Part shown: positions 3,674 through 28,923 of the stretch, piece by piece | How the letters are laid out: every line of letters begins with the position of its first letter | Numbering within the stretch: the stretch's first letter is position 1 | NCBI GenBank assembly: GCA_028678905.1 | Contig: JAJRCO010000222.1 | Span: forward strand, 1-36,423 | DNA: 36,423 bases | Direction of reading: 5' to 3' | Source of the DNA: Methanomicrobiales archaeon | GTDB taxonomy: Archaea > Halobacteriota > Methanomicrobia > Methanomicrobiales > JACTUA01 | Notes under the pieces: generated by a model | Databases searched by the model: none | Told to the model about the DNA's origin: nothing | What the model saw: the letters and a program-made list of their open reading frames with translations, nothing else | Position numbers and translations under genes: made by a program

Positions 3674-6600
3674 GTGGAAAAGGTGGAGAGCAGCTACAAC
3701 GCGAATGAGGTCGAAGAATCCGTGCAGGAATTCTGGAAGCGGGAGGACATCTATGCCCGGGTGCGATCCCTGCGCCGGAACGGACCTCCCTTCTTTTTTG
3801 TCGATGGCCCTCCTTACACCACCGGCTATATCCACCTGGGAACCGCCTGGAACAAGATCCTCAAAGACACCATCCTCCGCTTCCATCGCATGCAGGGTCG
3901 CCATGTGCTCGACCGGGCCGGGTACGACATGCACGGACTTCCCATCGAGGTGAAGGTGGAGCACGCGTTGGGCTTCACCACCAAGAAGGATATCGAGGCC
4001 TACGGGATTGGACCCTTCATCGAGCAGTGCCGGGAGTTTGCGCTCCGCAACAAAGACATCATGAGCGGACAGTTCCGGCGTCTGGGAGTCTGGCTTGATT
4101 TCGACAACCCCTACCAGACCCTTTCCCGGGAATACATCGCCGCGGCCTGGTGGACGCTGAAACGGGCGGAGGAAGAACAGAAGCTGGAGAAGGGCTATCG
4201 GGTGGTGAACTGGTGCCCCCGCTGCGAGACTGCGATCGCCGATGCGGAGGTGGAGTACTGGGAGGCTACCGATCCCTCCATCTTCGTGAAATTCCCAGTC
4301 GAAGGAAAGAAAAACGAGTACCTGATCATCTGGACCACCACCCCCTGGACGCTTCCTGCAAACATCGCCGTGGCGGTTCATCCCTCGTTCCTCTATGTCC
4401 GGGTGTCCGCAAAAAAAGATGGGAGAGAGGAATTTCTCTGGGTCGCCGATGATCTCGCCGAATCGGTCCTCCGGAAAGGAAGGTACCAGAATTACGAGAT
4501 TACCGAACGGAAGGTAGGCTCCGACCTGGTCGGTCTGGAATACCGGTCTCCTCTGGAACAGTTCGTTCCGATCCAGAAGAATATTATTCACCGGGTGGTG
4601 CCGGCGGATTTCGTCACCTTGGAGAACACCGGGATGGTGCATATTGCCCCCGGCCACGGATGGGACGATTATCTCCTGGGCCTCCGCGAGCACCTGGAGA
4701 TCTTCTGTCCAGTAGATGGTTCTGGTCATTTCACCAGGGAGGGGGGGAAATACGCTGGCTTGAGCGTGAAGGATGCGAATCCGGTGATCCTGGACGATCT
4801 CGGCGCATCCCTGATCTCACGGGGGGAGGTGGTTCACCGCTACGGGCACTGCTGGCGGTGCAAGAAGCCCATCATTTTCCGGGCCACCGAACAATGGTTC
4901 CTGACCGTCTCCGATATCCGGGAACAGATGCTCGCCCAGATCGCAGAGGTGAAATGGTTCCCCGAATGGGCTGGCAGTGCCCGGTTCCACGACTGGGTGA
5001 AAGAGGTCCGCGACTGGTGTATCTCCCGCCAGCGTTTCTGGGGTATCCCCATCCCTATCTGGCAGTGTCCAGAATGCCATTCCTACCGGGTGATGGGATC
5101 CTTCGAGGAACTGGAGGCGCTTAGCGGGGCACCGCTCCTGGATCCCCACCGGCCCTATGTGGACATGGTCACCATTCCCTGCCCGTGCGGAGGAAGCATG
5201 CGCCGAGTTGAGGATATCTTCGACGTATGGTTCGATTCAGCGGTCGCGTCCTGGGCCACCCTTAAGTTCCCCGGAGTCAGGGAAGAGTTCGACCAGTACT
5301 GGCCTGCCGATTTCATCACGGAAGGCCAGGATCAGACCCGGGGCTGGTTCTATTCCCAGCTGGGGGCAAGCACCATCGCGTTCGGCCGGGCACCCTATCG
5401 CAGGGTACTGATGCACGGTTTCGCCCTGGATGCGGAAGGAAGGAAGATGAGCAAGAGCCTGGGGAATATGGTCTCACCTGAGGAGATCATCGCCCAATTC
5501 GGGGCGGATGTGCTCCGGCTCTACGTTCTCTCTGCCAGCGCGCCCTGGGACGACCTGAAGTTCAACCAGGAAGGAGTAAAGACCGTGAACCGGACCGTAA
5601 ACATCCTGTGGAACGTGTACCGGTTCCCTCTCCCGTACATGATCCTGGACCGGTTCACCCCGGTTTCGCAGGAGGGTCTATGGGATCCGGAAGGCCTCTC
5701 TGCGATTCACTCACGTCTTTCTGACGAAGATCGCTGGATCCTCTCCCGCATCAATTCGGTGGCACAGGAGGTGGAGGTCTCCCTGCAGGATTGCCAGCTG
5801 CACCATGCCAGCCGAGCCATCCTGTCCTTCATCCTGGACGACCTCTCCCGGTGGTATATCCAGCTGATCCGCCCCCGCATGTGGCTGGAGGAGGCCGCGG
5901 CCGAAAAGGAACAGGCTTACCAGTGTCTCTATCACGTGCTCCGACGGCTTCTAGTACTGCTCGCCCCCTTCGCCCCACACATCACGGAGAAGATGTACGG
6001 GAATCTCCGCCTGCCCGCAGAACCGGAGTCCCTCCACCTCCAGGACTGGATCCATCCTAATGAACGGATAATCGACCAGGAACTGGAGGGCATGATGCGC
6101 ACGGTGATGGCGTTCGACGATGCGGTCGCGGCAGCCCGCCAGGTCGGGAGAAGGAAGCTGCGCTGGCCGGTGGCAGAGTGCGTGGTGGCAACGGAGAATC
6201 CCGAAGTGCGCAAGGCGTTGATGCATTTGCACCGCCTCTGCCGGTTGCGAGCAAACAGCCGCAAGGTGAATGTCAGCTCTGTTCCCTGGGATCGCATCAT
6301 CTGGAAGCCGGTGCCGGTGATGAAGGAGATCGGACCGGTATTCGGGAAGGATGCTCCACGGGTCAAGATTCTTGTCGAACAGGCGGAAGGCGCCTGGCTT
6401 AAAAAGACCCTGGAAGCGGAGGGACACGCGATCCTGGGAGAGCAGCGTTACGAGATCACCTCTTCCCAGGTGACCTTCCAGGAGACTATGCCAGATAATT
6501 TCTTTGCGGCACCGATGAAAGACGCGACCGTGTATGTGGACTGCCGACTCACTCCAGAGCTGGAGACAGAGGGCTATGCCCGGGAGATCATCCGGCGCCT

Positions 6601-24468: not shown

Positions 24469-26407
24469 GGTGCACCTCCTTCTCCCGCTCGAACCGGTAC
24501 TCCCTGAATATGGATTCCAGCATTTCCGTCCTCTTTCTGCGTTCCCGTGCTTCCTGTTCTCTCTCCCACTCTTTGAATGCTTCCTCAAACCGGTTCCGGT
24601 CTATGGTACCGCTCTTCCCCCGCACCTGAACTTTTACCTGATCTACAAACAGGAGGGGTAGATGGAATTCGGTGGAGGCTTTCATCAGCTGGGGATCGAC
24701 CTGCGCACGGAATGCACCCACCACCAGGGCTCGAACGCCTGTATCGGCGAGCTCTTTGATCACTGATCGCCCCCACCCGTCTGTCCGGGCTACAAAGAGC
24801 ACATCCTCAGGGTTGATTCCCATCTCGGCACTGAGCTGATGGACCGCATCGCGGGTGAGGCCACCCAGGACCTTGAACGGCAGGACATCCTCCTTCTCTT
24901 CCAGAGCCGCGTACTGCCGCATTTTCTCCAGCCGTTTCCGCAGGTTACGGCCGTATCGCTGTTCCTTCCGCAGCTGGTGTTTGAGGCCCTGGATGAGATG
25001 GTCCCGGCGAACGATTTCGGTATCCCGCCTCATGTGCTGGTCCTGGGTGGAACGCTCCCGATGGAGTCGTTTTTGGAGCCGGGTGATCTCTCGCTCTTTC
25101 TCCTTCTGGTCAGCCTGCAGCTCGGTGACGAATTCTTTCAGCCGCTTCACCTGCCCCTCCAGGCCAGTCACCCGCTCATCCCGCTTCCCATCTGCTGCGG
25201 GAACCAGAACCTCCCGGGATTCTTCCGGTTTCGCTGGTTCCTTCACACCCAGGATCTGTTCCAGAGACTGTCCCCTGATGATTCCTGCCCGGACCTCGTC
25301 TAGGTCGTAACCTGATGGGACACGTTTCATGATATTCTGGAGCTTATTGCGGTACTGGCGCAGCGCATCCAGTGCGGCGGCAAGTGCATCCCTCTCGTGC
25401 ACATTGGCGTAGCGGGAGCCGGCGGTGAGTTCCTGCTTTTCCTCCACAGTGCGGTCCTGGTGAGGGGTGTATCCGATCGCCTGGAAAGCCCGCCGTATCT
25501 TTTCTACTGTGTAGGGCATCTGCTGCACATCTGAGGCGATCACCAGCGGCTTTCCCAGGTGGTAAAGCGTCTCGATCGTCTCTGCCATGGAGGTCTGGCG
25601 GGAACTCTCCGTCCGCACCAGATTCCCCTCCAGGTCGATCGCCGCGATCGCGGTGGTGGTGCCCGGATCAATACCCACAATGAGGTACCGGGGCCGTTCC
25701 TGGAGTGGGCGGAACCGGATCCGGTCCAGGCGGCGGCAGGCCACCCGGACCTGCACGTCTGCCCCGCGATAATTGGGAATGGGAATCATTCCCCGGGGGG
25801 CATTCACCTGGAAGGAGACCCGGCTCGCCCCGCCGAACGCACGCGATTCTTTCTTATCGAAGGCGAGCCCGGCACCGATCAGCTGATCCTCGATCTCCCG
25901 TGCTTTCTGCAGGACGGCTCCGTGGATCTTCCGCACGTAGCGGTTCTGGCTCCATCCGCCTTTGCCGATCGAGCGATGGCGGCTTACTGCCACCTCACAG
26001 CTGTTCTCGAATGCGACCACTTCTGCCCCCCCACCCAGACAGGCCACCCGGGCGATGGTCCGGGCTTCGGCGTAGGGATCGAAACGGTTGAAGCTGATGT
26101 TGTACCGGGCGGCCACTTTCCCGAGCGTTTCTTTCTTTTCTCCTCCGGTCACCTGGATCAGGCGGGTGTGAGGAGGAAACTGCTGTAGGATCAGGCACAG
26201 TTCGTGCTGGTCCGGAGCCAGCTCCTGGATGCTGTCCACCGCGAGGATCTCCGGCTCCTCCTGTGCGAGCATGCGGAGCAGGCGGTAGTGGCTCACCTCT
26301 GTTTCCCGGGTGATCTCCCCGTTTTCGCAGACCACCAGCGCATACATGGGCCTGCGGGTTCGGGAGCGGACCGAACCGGTGATGATATCGATGCCAAAGA
26401 CCTTCAT
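24458..26407 (-). CDS. DUF460 domain protein (predicted RNase H-fold, coiled-coil)
   Basis: 649 aa; VFGIDIITGSVRSRTRRPMYALVV, YLIVGIDPGTTTAIAAIDLEGNLV, RDALAAALDALRQYRNK, long charged coiled-coil. Confidence 0.82.
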   Translation of the reverse strand: MKVFGIDIITGSVRSRTRRPMYALVVCENGEITRETEVSHYRLLRMLAQEEPEILAVDSIQELAPDQHELCLILQQFPPHTRLIQVTGGEKKETLGKVAARYNISFNRFDPYAEARTIARVACLGGGAEVVAFENSCEVAVSRHRSIGKGGWSQNRYVRKIHGAVLQKAREIEDQLIGAGLAFDKKESRAFGGASRVSFQVNAPRGMIPIPNYRGADVQVRVACRRLDRIRFRPLQERPRYLIVGIDPGTTTAIAAIDLEGNLVRTESSRQTSMAETIETLYHLGKPLVIASDVQQMPYTVEKIRRAFQAIGYTPHQDRTVEEKQELTAGSRYANVHERDALAAALDALRQYRNKLQNIMKRVPSGYDLDEVRAGIIRGQSLEQILGVKEPAKPEESREVLVPAADGKRDERVTGLEGQVKRLKEFVTELQADQKEKEREITRLQKRLHRERSTQDQHMRRDTEIVRRDHLIQGLKHQLRKEQRYGRNLRKRLEKMRQYAALEEKEDVLPFKVLGGLTRDAVHQLSAEMGINPEDVLFVARTDGWGRSVIKELADTGVRALVVGAFRAQVDPQLMKASTEFHLPLLFVDQVKVQVRGKSGTIDRNRFEEAFKEWEREQEARERRKRTEMLESIFREYRFEREKEVHRGR

Positions 26408-27267
26408 CCGGCCATACTCTCCAGGACGTTCTCAAGGGAGCGGACGATATTATACTTTCTCTGGAAATAGGAGAGGATATTCTGCACGTCCCTGCGCAGG
26501 AGAGCTCCCGCATTGGGATGGGTGGTCTCCACCCACTGAGGCCAGTCGATCAGGTAGCAGGTCCCTTCATCCATCATCACATTAAACTCACTGAGATCGG
26601 CATGAATGATTCCCAGGTCATATGATGCACGCACATTCTCCAGAATCTCCTCCAGGGTATGCTCCGGATCGGAGAGGCGGGCATGGTTCAACAGAACACC
26701 TTCGATCAGAGACATCGCCACCACATGACGGTTTCGGTCGATGGGGAGTGGAACGCTGACTCGGGGATGGAGGGTTTTCAGAGCCAGGAATTCCCGTTCG
26801 GCGGACAGGACCGAGGCAAAGAGGCGCGGAATGTGCCCCCCGTCAGGGAGATAACCCCGGCTGATGCGGGCAGACTGGAAGGAGCGCTGCCCAATCCGGT
26901 GGAACTTCAGCACCAGCCGGGTGAGACCCAGGGCCTCGTACACCACCGATTCCTTTCCTACCCCAATGAGACTTCCCAGGGCGCTGATGGTGTCTCGTTC
27001 GGAGAGTGTGCGGAGGGCTAGCGTATCCATGCCGGCAAACACGAGGGCATAGCCCTCATAGGGCACCTTACGGAACCGCACCATATCCCCCGCCATCAGC
27101 CGACCCAGCCGGTACGCGAGCTCGCTGTCAGAGAACCGCGTCGACGATTTCAGGAGATCGAGGGGAACCCAGGCATAGCGTTTCATCAGGTGCTCAAGGG
27201 TGAGCAGGATGCGGAGCTCGTAGGGATGAAGAGACTTAATCTGGTCTGCGGAAATGGGCATGGCCAT
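26404..27267 (-). CDS. rio2: RIO2-type serine/threonine protein kinase
   Basis: N-terminal winged helix, ALGSLIGVGKESVVYEAL, LKFHRIGQRSFQ, LGIIHADLSEFNVMMDEGTCYLIDWPQWVETTHPNA. Confidence 0.93.
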   Translation of the reverse strand: MAMPISADQIKSLHPYELRILLTLEHLMKRYAWVPLDLLKSSTRFSDSELAYRLGRLMAGDMVRFRKVPYEGYALVFAGMDTLALRTLSERDTISALGSLIGVGKESVVYEALGLTRLVLKFHRIGQRSFQSARISRGYLPDGGHIPRLFASVLSAEREFLALKTLHPRVSVPLPIDRNRHVVAMSLIEGVLLNHARLSDPEHTLEEILENVRASYDLGIIHADLSEFNVMMDEGTCYLIDWPQWVETTHPNAGALLRRDVQNILSYFQRKYNIVRSLENVLESMAG

Positions 27268-27308: not shown

Positions 27309-28187
27309 ATGGAGTGCGATCACTGCCGGCAGGAGGCTATCGTCTTCCAGCCCTATTCCGGACAGCATCTGTGCGACCACCATTTCTCTCTCGATGTGGA
27401 GCGGAGAGCAAAGCGGATCATCAGGGCGAACGGATGGATACGTCCGAATGCACGCACCGCAATAATGGTATCCGGGGACGATGCGGGGGTGTCGCTCGTG
27501 CATTTTTTCGCCACGGTTTTCGGAGAACGACGGGATCTTTCATTTTTCGTGGTGTTGGTGGATGACCCAAAGGCAGATCGCGCCAGTGCGGAATATATCG
27601 GGGAGATCGCCCGTACGAGGGGCTGGGAATGGATCCGGGTAGTCATGCAGGATAGACATGAAACCGCACTGGGCAAGGCTGCCAGACCAGAGTACCACGG
27701 GCGGGAACAGGCTCCTGTGCTCGATGATCGCATTATTCGGAGAATCGCGCAAGAGAAAGGTGCCACCCAGCTCGCACTGGCCTCTACACTGGAGGACGAG
27801 GCCTGCGAGATGATGAGGGATGTCCTGTGGGGAGATGTTTCCCGGTTATACCGGACGGAAGGGGAGAATACTCTTCCCCTGATCCGGCCATTTGCGGGTG
27901 TCCCCGAACAGGAAGTCATTTTCTACGCCCGTATCCAGGGACTGCAGGAATCCGGTTTACCTGCTCGTTCAGGTAGTCAATCGCGGGAAGAGATTCGGGC
28001 AATGCTGGAAGATTTCACTTTCCGCCACCCCTCCACTCCTTTTGCGCTGGCCAATTTGAGAGCCGAGCTTATGATAGGCAAAAGCACTGGACCGATCCAT
28101 AGGCACAGCGGTCAACCCGGTGAGGATATATTCCGGAGGAGTGAGAATATGAAGAAAACACCAGGTGAGGATCAGAATGCAGTGTGA
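27309..28187 (+). CDS. Degenerate NcsA/Ctu1 (TIGR00269)-like PP-loop family protein, catalytic motifs lost
   Basis: Family-wide alignment by eye: CxxC...YSGQHLCDHHF, AIMVSGDDAG (PP-loop position), APVLDDRIIRRIAQEKGATQLALASTLEDEACEMMRDVLWGDVSRL, PLIRPFAGVPEQEVIFYARIQGL, SQSREEIRAMLEDF. Confidence 0.75.
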   Translation: MECDHCRQEAIVFQPYSGQHLCDHHFSLDVERRAKRIIRANGWIRPNARTAIMVSGDDAGVSLVHFFATVFGERRDLSFFVVLVDDPKADRASAEYIGEIARTRGWEWIRVVMQDRHETALGKAARPEYHGREQAPVLDDRIIRRIAQEKGATQLALASTLEDEACEMMRDVLWGDVSRLYRTEGENTLPLIRPFAGVPEQEVIFYARIQGLQESGLPARSGSQSREEIRAMLEDFTFRHPSTPFALANLRAELMIGKSTGPIHRHSGQPGEDIFRRSENMKKTPGEDQNAV

Positions 28188-28923
28188 CCCGGGCTGTGAG
28201 GCAGAACGCATCGAGCAGATGATCCGACACGTCCTGTGGAGCAGCAGCTGCGCTGGAATCGTGGTAGGAGTAAGCGGTGGTGTTGATTCGTCTCTGGCAG
28301 CTGTCCTCTGCACGGCGGCGTTGGGAAAGGAGAGGGTGAAGGGGGTACTCCTTCCTTCGGAAGTGACCCGAAAAGAGGATATCCGGGATGCCCGGAACCT
28401 CTGCACCGCCCTAGGCATTCCTGCGGTGACCGTCAGCATCCAGCCTATTCTGGATCGATACCGGGAGACACCCGGCTACCTCCAGAACACGTACCTGGAG
28501 GGGAATCTGACGGCCCGCATCCGCATGACCCTCCTGTACTACCTGGCGAACCGCGAGTACCGGCTGGTATGCGGAACCTCCAACCGGAGTGAATACCTGC
28601 TCGGATACTGCACCAAATACGGGGACAATGCGGCCGATTTCCAGCCCATCCTACATTTGTATAAAACAGAGGTATATGCCCTCGCCCGACACCTGGAATT
28701 GCCCGCCGCAATACTCGACAAACCTCCATCAGCGGGGTTATGGGCGGGACAGACCGACGAAGGGGAACTCGGCCTCACCTATCCCGTGATCGACCAGGCT
28801 CTCCGTGCGTTGGAGAGCAACCGGTGGTTGGCCAGCACCGATGAGGAGGAGAAAGTGCTCCGGCTGGTAGAGAGCAGCCGTCACAAGAGGTCCCCCCCAT
28901 TCAGCCTGCTAGCAGGGTCTTGA
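28177..28923 (+). CDS. nadE: NAD synthetase (ammonia-dependent type)
   Basis: GIVVGVSGGVDSSLAAVLC, LEGNLTARIRMTLLYYLAN, LVCGTSNRSEYLLGYCTKYGDNAADFQPI, LYKTEVYALARHLELP, KPPSAGLWAGQTDEGELG. Confidence 0.94.
   Translation: MQCDPGCEAERIEQMIRHVLWSSSCAGIVVGVSGGVDSSLAAVLCTAALGKERVKGVLLPSEVTRKEDIRDARNLCTALGIPAVTVSIQPILDRYRETPGYLQNTYLEGNLTARIRMTLLYYLANREYRLVCGTSNRSEYLLGYCTKYGDNAADFQPILHLYKTEVYALARHLELPAAILDKPPSAGLWAGQTDEGELGLTYPVIDQALRALESNRWLASTDEEEKVLRLVESSRHKRSPPFSLLAGS

Follow-up and report, generated by a model that had tools for sequence, protein, structure and literature searches.

The window, which here means the whole 36,423-nucleotide stretch of Methanomicrobiales DNA that was analysed, contains a gene whose frame runs without stops through 292 codons, as the original prediction had read it (Table 1). 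The NCBIfam model for NcsA (NF047749) matches residues 1-246 of the product with E 1.4e-18 and 67 bits, below the curated equivalog cut-off of 500 bits, which the intact copies of this order do not reach either. Among PDB sequences the product matches Methanococcus maripaludis NcsA (6scy) best, and an AlphaFold2 model that drew on 51 orthologues (pLDDT 82.9, pTM 0.79) also retrieved 6scy as its top match when searched with Foldseek against the PDB (E 5e-18). The family-model search and the structural model that had been proposed as checks thus both returned NcsA. Fold, an orthologous locus and placement in a single clade with its orthologues (clade B, described below) show that the product is a true NcsA-family protein by descent, without the defining catalytic features of active NcsA.

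The catalytic losses read originally from the letters alone were borne out by alignment. The PP-loop SGGKDS of active NcsA and Ctu1 is replaced by SGDDAG, the changes to STLEDE and LPARSGSQSRE lie where they had been placed, and the columns of the three Fe-S cluster cysteines hold R132, A135 and A219, so that both cysteines of the predicted lost CxxC are gone and the third is absent as well. The C-terminal zinc ribbon (two CxxC), a loss additional to those given earlier, is also missing, its columns holding S, F, S or gaps. The N-terminal zinc finger is retained and recognized by Pfam PF22082 with E 2e-10.

Table 1 Features of the ncsA pseudoenzyme gene (locus B) and its neighbours in the window
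Feature	Position	Strand	Basis
RIO-family kinase, divergent conserved neighbour marking the ancestral ncsA locus	26404..27267	-	Synteny across the order and outgroup families
Degenerate NcsA, locus B (ncsA pseudoenzyme), 292 aa	27309..28187	+	Family models, PDB match, AlphaFold2/Foldseek, alignment
Retained N-terminal zinc knuckle, C3-x2-C6 ... L21-C22-x2-H25, with Q14, Y16, S17 and G18	27315..27386	+	PF22082 above gathering score
Former PP-loop, SGGKDS to SGDDAG (lost)	27471..27488	+	Alignment
Former CxxCG..RR Fe-S cluster segment, now R-E-Q-A-P-V-L-D-D (two Cys lost)	27702..27743	+	Alignment
Former G(H/F)N.DDE, now STLEDE (L-[DE]-D kept; catalytic His/Asn lost)	27783..27800	+	Alignment
Former CPY...LR segment with third cluster Cys, now LPARSGSQSRE (lost)	27957..27989	+	Alignment
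Retained HP[SAG]t.[yf][as]L helix, RHPSTPFALANL	28023..28058	+	H240-P241 in every full-length degenerate copy
nadE, NAD+ synthase, start GTG 28165 or ATG 28177 (neighbour, outside the inferred system)	28165..28923	+	NCBIfam NF010587 above cut-off

Membership of the TtuA or Ctu2 families was not supported by family-model scores or by the tree. TtuA, the m5U54 thiolase, shares the fold and an N-terminal LIM-type zinc knuckle with the window protein but matches it more weakly than NcsA does (E 2.8e-5 versus 1.4e-18), and TtuA-like copies form a separate branch of the tree with their motifs intact. Second matches in families f8, f16, f21 and f25 were rejected as further paralogues because they are TtuA-like with intact motifs. 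Pfam and NCBIfam models of the Ctu2 family gave no match to the window protein at E up to 10.

An ancestral ncsA locus

Relatives of the window gene were sought in 232 genomes of the order and are present nearly everywhere. At the fetched loci, B stands divergently beside the RIO-family kinase, with DUF460 and thiL following behind the kinase and, in most cases, nadE and a PGI-like gene downstream of B. Outgroup families carry a single canonical ncsA that adjoins RIO and/or DUF460 (G367, G341, G256 and G242), and locus B is therefore the ncsA that this lineage inherited vertically from its ancestors.

The original prediction had instead coupled the gene to nadE, which it overlaps in the window by 23 bp (from GTG 28165) or 11 bp (from ATG 28177). 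Many relatives have a gene of ~577 aa between B and nadE (L044:6771-8504), which from its sequence we take to be a TrkA-like K+ channel and which is missing from the window. The overlap is thus a local arrangement, and what is conserved beside B is the divergent RIO kinase/DUF460 pair; functional coupling to nadE as the main link was rejected, and the link to nadE is incidental.

Recurrent degeneration of B beside a second NcsA

Roughly half the genomes sampled have an intact locus B, intactness being defined by SGGKDS, CxxCG, CPY and both zinc sites. Elsewhere it is degenerate with a mostly open frame (60 sampled sequences), as in Methanomicrobium mobile (L287) and Methanospirillum stamsii (L292). 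Genomes with an intact B usually have one NcsA only, and those with a degenerate B carry a second, intact NcsA (here called A) at another place. Among scored genomes, A is present in 50 of the 52 in which B is degenerate, the window's own genome included, and in 6 of the 37 in which B is intact (31 lack it), so that a degenerate paralogue beside an intact Ctu1/NcsA, a trait of Ctu2, is found in nearly every case. The canonical ncsA that had been suggested for a search elsewhere in the window's genome was found as an A split by contig ends between C343 (G000:C343:24-818, L001; model residues 2-286) and C244 (G000:C244:9-191, L002; residues 257-321); automatic annotation would consequently show catalytic fragments and one full-length dead copy.

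This distribution bears on a reading, developed below, in which B is a non-catalytic partner of A. The association between A and a degenerate B is strong when uncorrected for descent (Fisher p 1e-15), and phylogenetically independent pairs agree in direction (on average 5.4 in the same direction versus 0 opposite). Correction for phylogeny leaves it only borderline (median p 0.06) because such pairs are few, which counts against the partner reading, as do two genomes with a degenerate B in which no A was found (G007 and G094), both of them fragmented drafts with A-bearing relatives. Every A-bearing genome examined with an assembled RIO locus has B. Two genomes appear to lack it: G195, where this RIO, DUF460 and nadE are all missing too and where we infer an assembly gap, and G006, where RIO lies on a truncated frame of 231 aa, presumably at a contig end with B beyond the contig. 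One genome assembled as a single contig (G194) has B split into two overlapping frames (L149:4314-4748 and 4568-5218), which is either the first true decay or an indel error and also counts against partnership.

Some copies are extremely shortened. Five loci of f2 g8 (L143 and L145-L148, from G026, G039, G023, G042 and G019) encode B proteins of only 185-198 aa. L146, the sole one tested, is recognized by Pfam only through its N-terminal zinc knuckle; at most of these loci nadE remains adjacent and no RIO kinase was seen in the fetched flanks. A separate draft, G092, contains two degenerate B copies, 75% identical, at two RIO-linked loci (L136:109-813 and L135:1912-2616), which may be a strain mixture or a duplication.

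Degeneration of B arose many times independently. Mapped on a tree of neighbouring genes, the state of B changes 12 times, at least 8 of them on well-supported (starred) branches, and G140, with SGRTDS in the presence of A, adds an early-stage case to these 12 changes. Within the order, A and B each form one clade, and the degenerate copies fall inside the NcsA tree. The process also recurred separately in native copies of Methanothrix: in a family that is Methanothrix-like as judged by its RIO locus (f18), the degenerate copies of G392, G428 and G455 group with the native single-copy NcsA (support 100/99), and the intact extra copies sampled (G392 and G440) form the sister group of the order's A clade (support 100/96). 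The A clade is patchy, which together with its sister relationship to copies from Methanothrix suggests that A has spread horizontally. Another f18 genome state, two intact copies as in G440, is a plausible starting point.

Constraint on the degenerate copies

Selection was estimated from 44 pairs of degenerate B genes with >50% identity. Omega ranges from 0.13 to 0.49 (median 0.285), compared with mostly 0.05-0.25 for A, RIO and nadE in the same pairs. The degenerate B therefore evolves faster than these three genes under constraint that is relaxed relative to them, a point against the partner reading. The window gene and its congener in G004 give an omega of 0.23 at near-saturated dS, and at 0.5 neutral substitutions per site some 15 nonsense hits would be expected in the window gene, with a probability of ~2e-7 that the frame stays open. 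The low omega and the improbability of an open frame under neutrality mean that the protein is constrained, though less so than its neighbours, and degenerate B is kept under purifying selection.

These estimates bear directly on slow decay, in which A displaced B and left it as a fading remnant under relaxed selection. Its faster evolution relative to A and the neighbouring genes, the loss of motifs in differing ways and to differing degrees, and the split frame of G194 are what such decay would produce, but the median omega, the open-frame probability of the window gene, the absence of any confirmed loss of B from an A-bearing genome, and the persistence of open degenerate copies through whole genera and one whole family, with members at high dS, have largely refuted it already, and we consider it very unlikely. 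Strain-specific decay and sequencing error were rejected because the sister genome G004 and many genera are degenerate too; the degenerate state of B in G004 means that error is not the cause in the window. The original prediction of a retained pseudoenzyme accordingly stands, with dN/dS well below 1 and a degenerate state common to whole genera. Of the circumstances that it had held to speak against it, that of intact orthologues beside a strain-specific decay holds in part, since intact orthologues are common, but strain-specific or neutral decay and sequencing error did not materialize.

What is retained was scored over 58 degenerate copies in reference numbering. The four N-terminal zinc ligands are present in 100% of them, Q14, Y16, S17 and G18 in 95-100%, R39 in 100% and R74 in 97%, and H240-P241 in 100% of full-length copies. 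The former active site shows the opposite: just 7% of copies retain the PP-loop K and 0% the PP-loop D, and the three cluster cysteines survive in 17-26%. The core fold is still present, and so are portions of the L-D-D region, as would be needed by an altered enzyme that catalyses a different reaction with a remodelled PP-loop, but the former active-site columns have acquired no new consensus, and such an enzyme is extremely improbable.

Several residues conserved in both canonical NcsA and degenerate B (Q14, Y16, S17, K35, R39, R74 and P203) are mostly lost in A, where equivalents of Q14, Y16, S17, K35, R39 and R74 are kept in just 3-29% of sequences. Taken over every conserved column, the losses in A and those in B are only weakly reciprocal (Spearman -0.25), and a 2x2 split of 21/44/11/18 does not reach significance, which counts against the partner reading. 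Sharp complementarity was therefore rejected; only individual residues are cited here, and the case for partnership is not rested on reciprocity.

A putative active/inactive NcsA pair

The evolutionary distances of A and those of B across 39 genomes were compared by mirror tree, A and B lying far from each other in the genome. A-B distances correlate with r 0.76, compared with 0.64-0.66 for B and its own neighbours RIO and nadE, and once RIO and nadE are controlled for, a partial correlation of 0.51 is left (permutation p 0.0005), in favour of the partner reading. Control pairs mostly give partial correlations of 0.13-0.24; A-RIO, at 0.44, nearly equals A-B and counts against the partner reading.

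Correlated evolution also bears on a role for B that is independent of A, in which the zinc knuckle and helices bind some other partner (tRNA, ribosome, SAMP or the RIO kinase) and B represents a second function of the original NcsA, left alone once A thiolates. Purifying selection and universal retention of the zinc knuckle are as expected for such a role, synteny of B with the RIO kinase is maintained, and the reduction of B to 185-260 aa in several clades implies that much of the NcsA body is dispensable. Against this, A-B correlated evolution exceeds that of B with its neighbours RIO and nadE, and the B-RIO synteny is older than the degeneration and so is uninformative about a new role. 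We regard an A-independent function as rather unlikely.

Known thiolases provide the comparison for the partner reading. Each chain of the NcsA homodimer carries a [4Fe-4S] cluster and two zinc sites, and the current literature assigns archaeal U34 thiolation to a single NcsA and that of eukaryotes to an active/inactive pair (PMC10067955). Eukaryotic Ctu2 is without the cluster cysteines, keeps the zinc sites and has been modelled as the second NcsA monomer of the dimer (PMC10067955); Ncs2, though no longer functional as an enzyme, is indispensable for 2-thiolation (PMC10450187). B has the fold, length, N-terminal zinc knuckle and ancestral locus of archaeal NcsA, the U34-tRNA thiolase known from Haloferax volcanii and M. 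maripaludis (6scy), but not its PP-loop, Fe-S cysteines or C-terminal zinc ribbon, and consequently cannot be a stand-alone thiolase. Like Ctu2/Ncs2, it is a degenerate NcsA-family paralogue beside an intact one that has lost the cluster cysteines and kept zinc-binding parts (PMC10067955, PMC10450187). It differs from them in its independent origin, each lineage having drawn it from its own native archaeal ncsA, in being shorter and in that its putative interaction with a partner is read indirectly, from distance correlation. Most degenerate B proteins, unlike eukaryotic Ctu2, also lack the C-terminal zinc site, which counts against partnership. Common descent with eukaryotic Ctu2 found no support in our trees, which were built from archaeal sequences and in which each degenerate copy traces back to the native ncsA of the lineage that carries it; B probably works like Ctu2 without being Ctu2.

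On this evidence we consider it fairly likely that A and B make up a putative heterodimeric thiolase, evolved independently of eukaryotes, with B as its non-catalytic partner in the manner of Ctu2/Ncs2. The nucleotide-related or regulatory role offered originally found no support, and a partner role to a second NcsA fits better. B gave up ATP binding along with its [4Fe-4S] site and C-terminal zinc ribbon while a second, intact ncsA was present in the genome, and under the proposed mechanism A would provide the active site for U34 2-thiolation. B would stay as the non-catalytic subunit of the putative A-B heterodimer; it would keep the dimer together, and its N-terminal zinc knuckle and its C-terminal HP..aL helix would help to position tRNA. 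The observations themselves cover homology, motif loss, selection on B, its recurrent degeneration, and its co-occurrence and correlated evolution with A; from them we infer A-B binding, a need of B for thiolation and these roles of the retained segments. The division of labour would resemble that of Ctu1/Ncs6 with Ctu2/Ncs2, having arisen independently and repeatedly.

Among the papers searched, none mentions NcsA with Methanomicrobiales, or wobble-uridine thiolation with Methanothrix. The recurrence of a degenerate B alongside a working NcsA suggests an archaeal re-invention of the active/dead two-subunit enzyme of animals and yeast. More tentatively, and with slightly more doubt than conviction, we propose that a horizontally spread A lacks residues that the resident NcsA supplies and pairs with it wherever it settles, that catalysis by the resident then erodes irreversibly, and that a Ctu1/Ctu2-type heterodimer has in this way been re-invented about ten times. 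If the pair is real, close relatives within the order range from intact-only through both-intact and early-degenerate to fully degenerate states. Soluble recombinant Ctu2 has been unobtainable (PMC10067955); with a real pair, the way in which a dead subunit becomes necessary, and the role of Ctu2, would be directly testable with archaeal proteins. If some ten re-inventions are true, these archaea would hold a repeated natural experiment in the passage from a homodimer to an obligate enzyme-pseudoenzyme pair.
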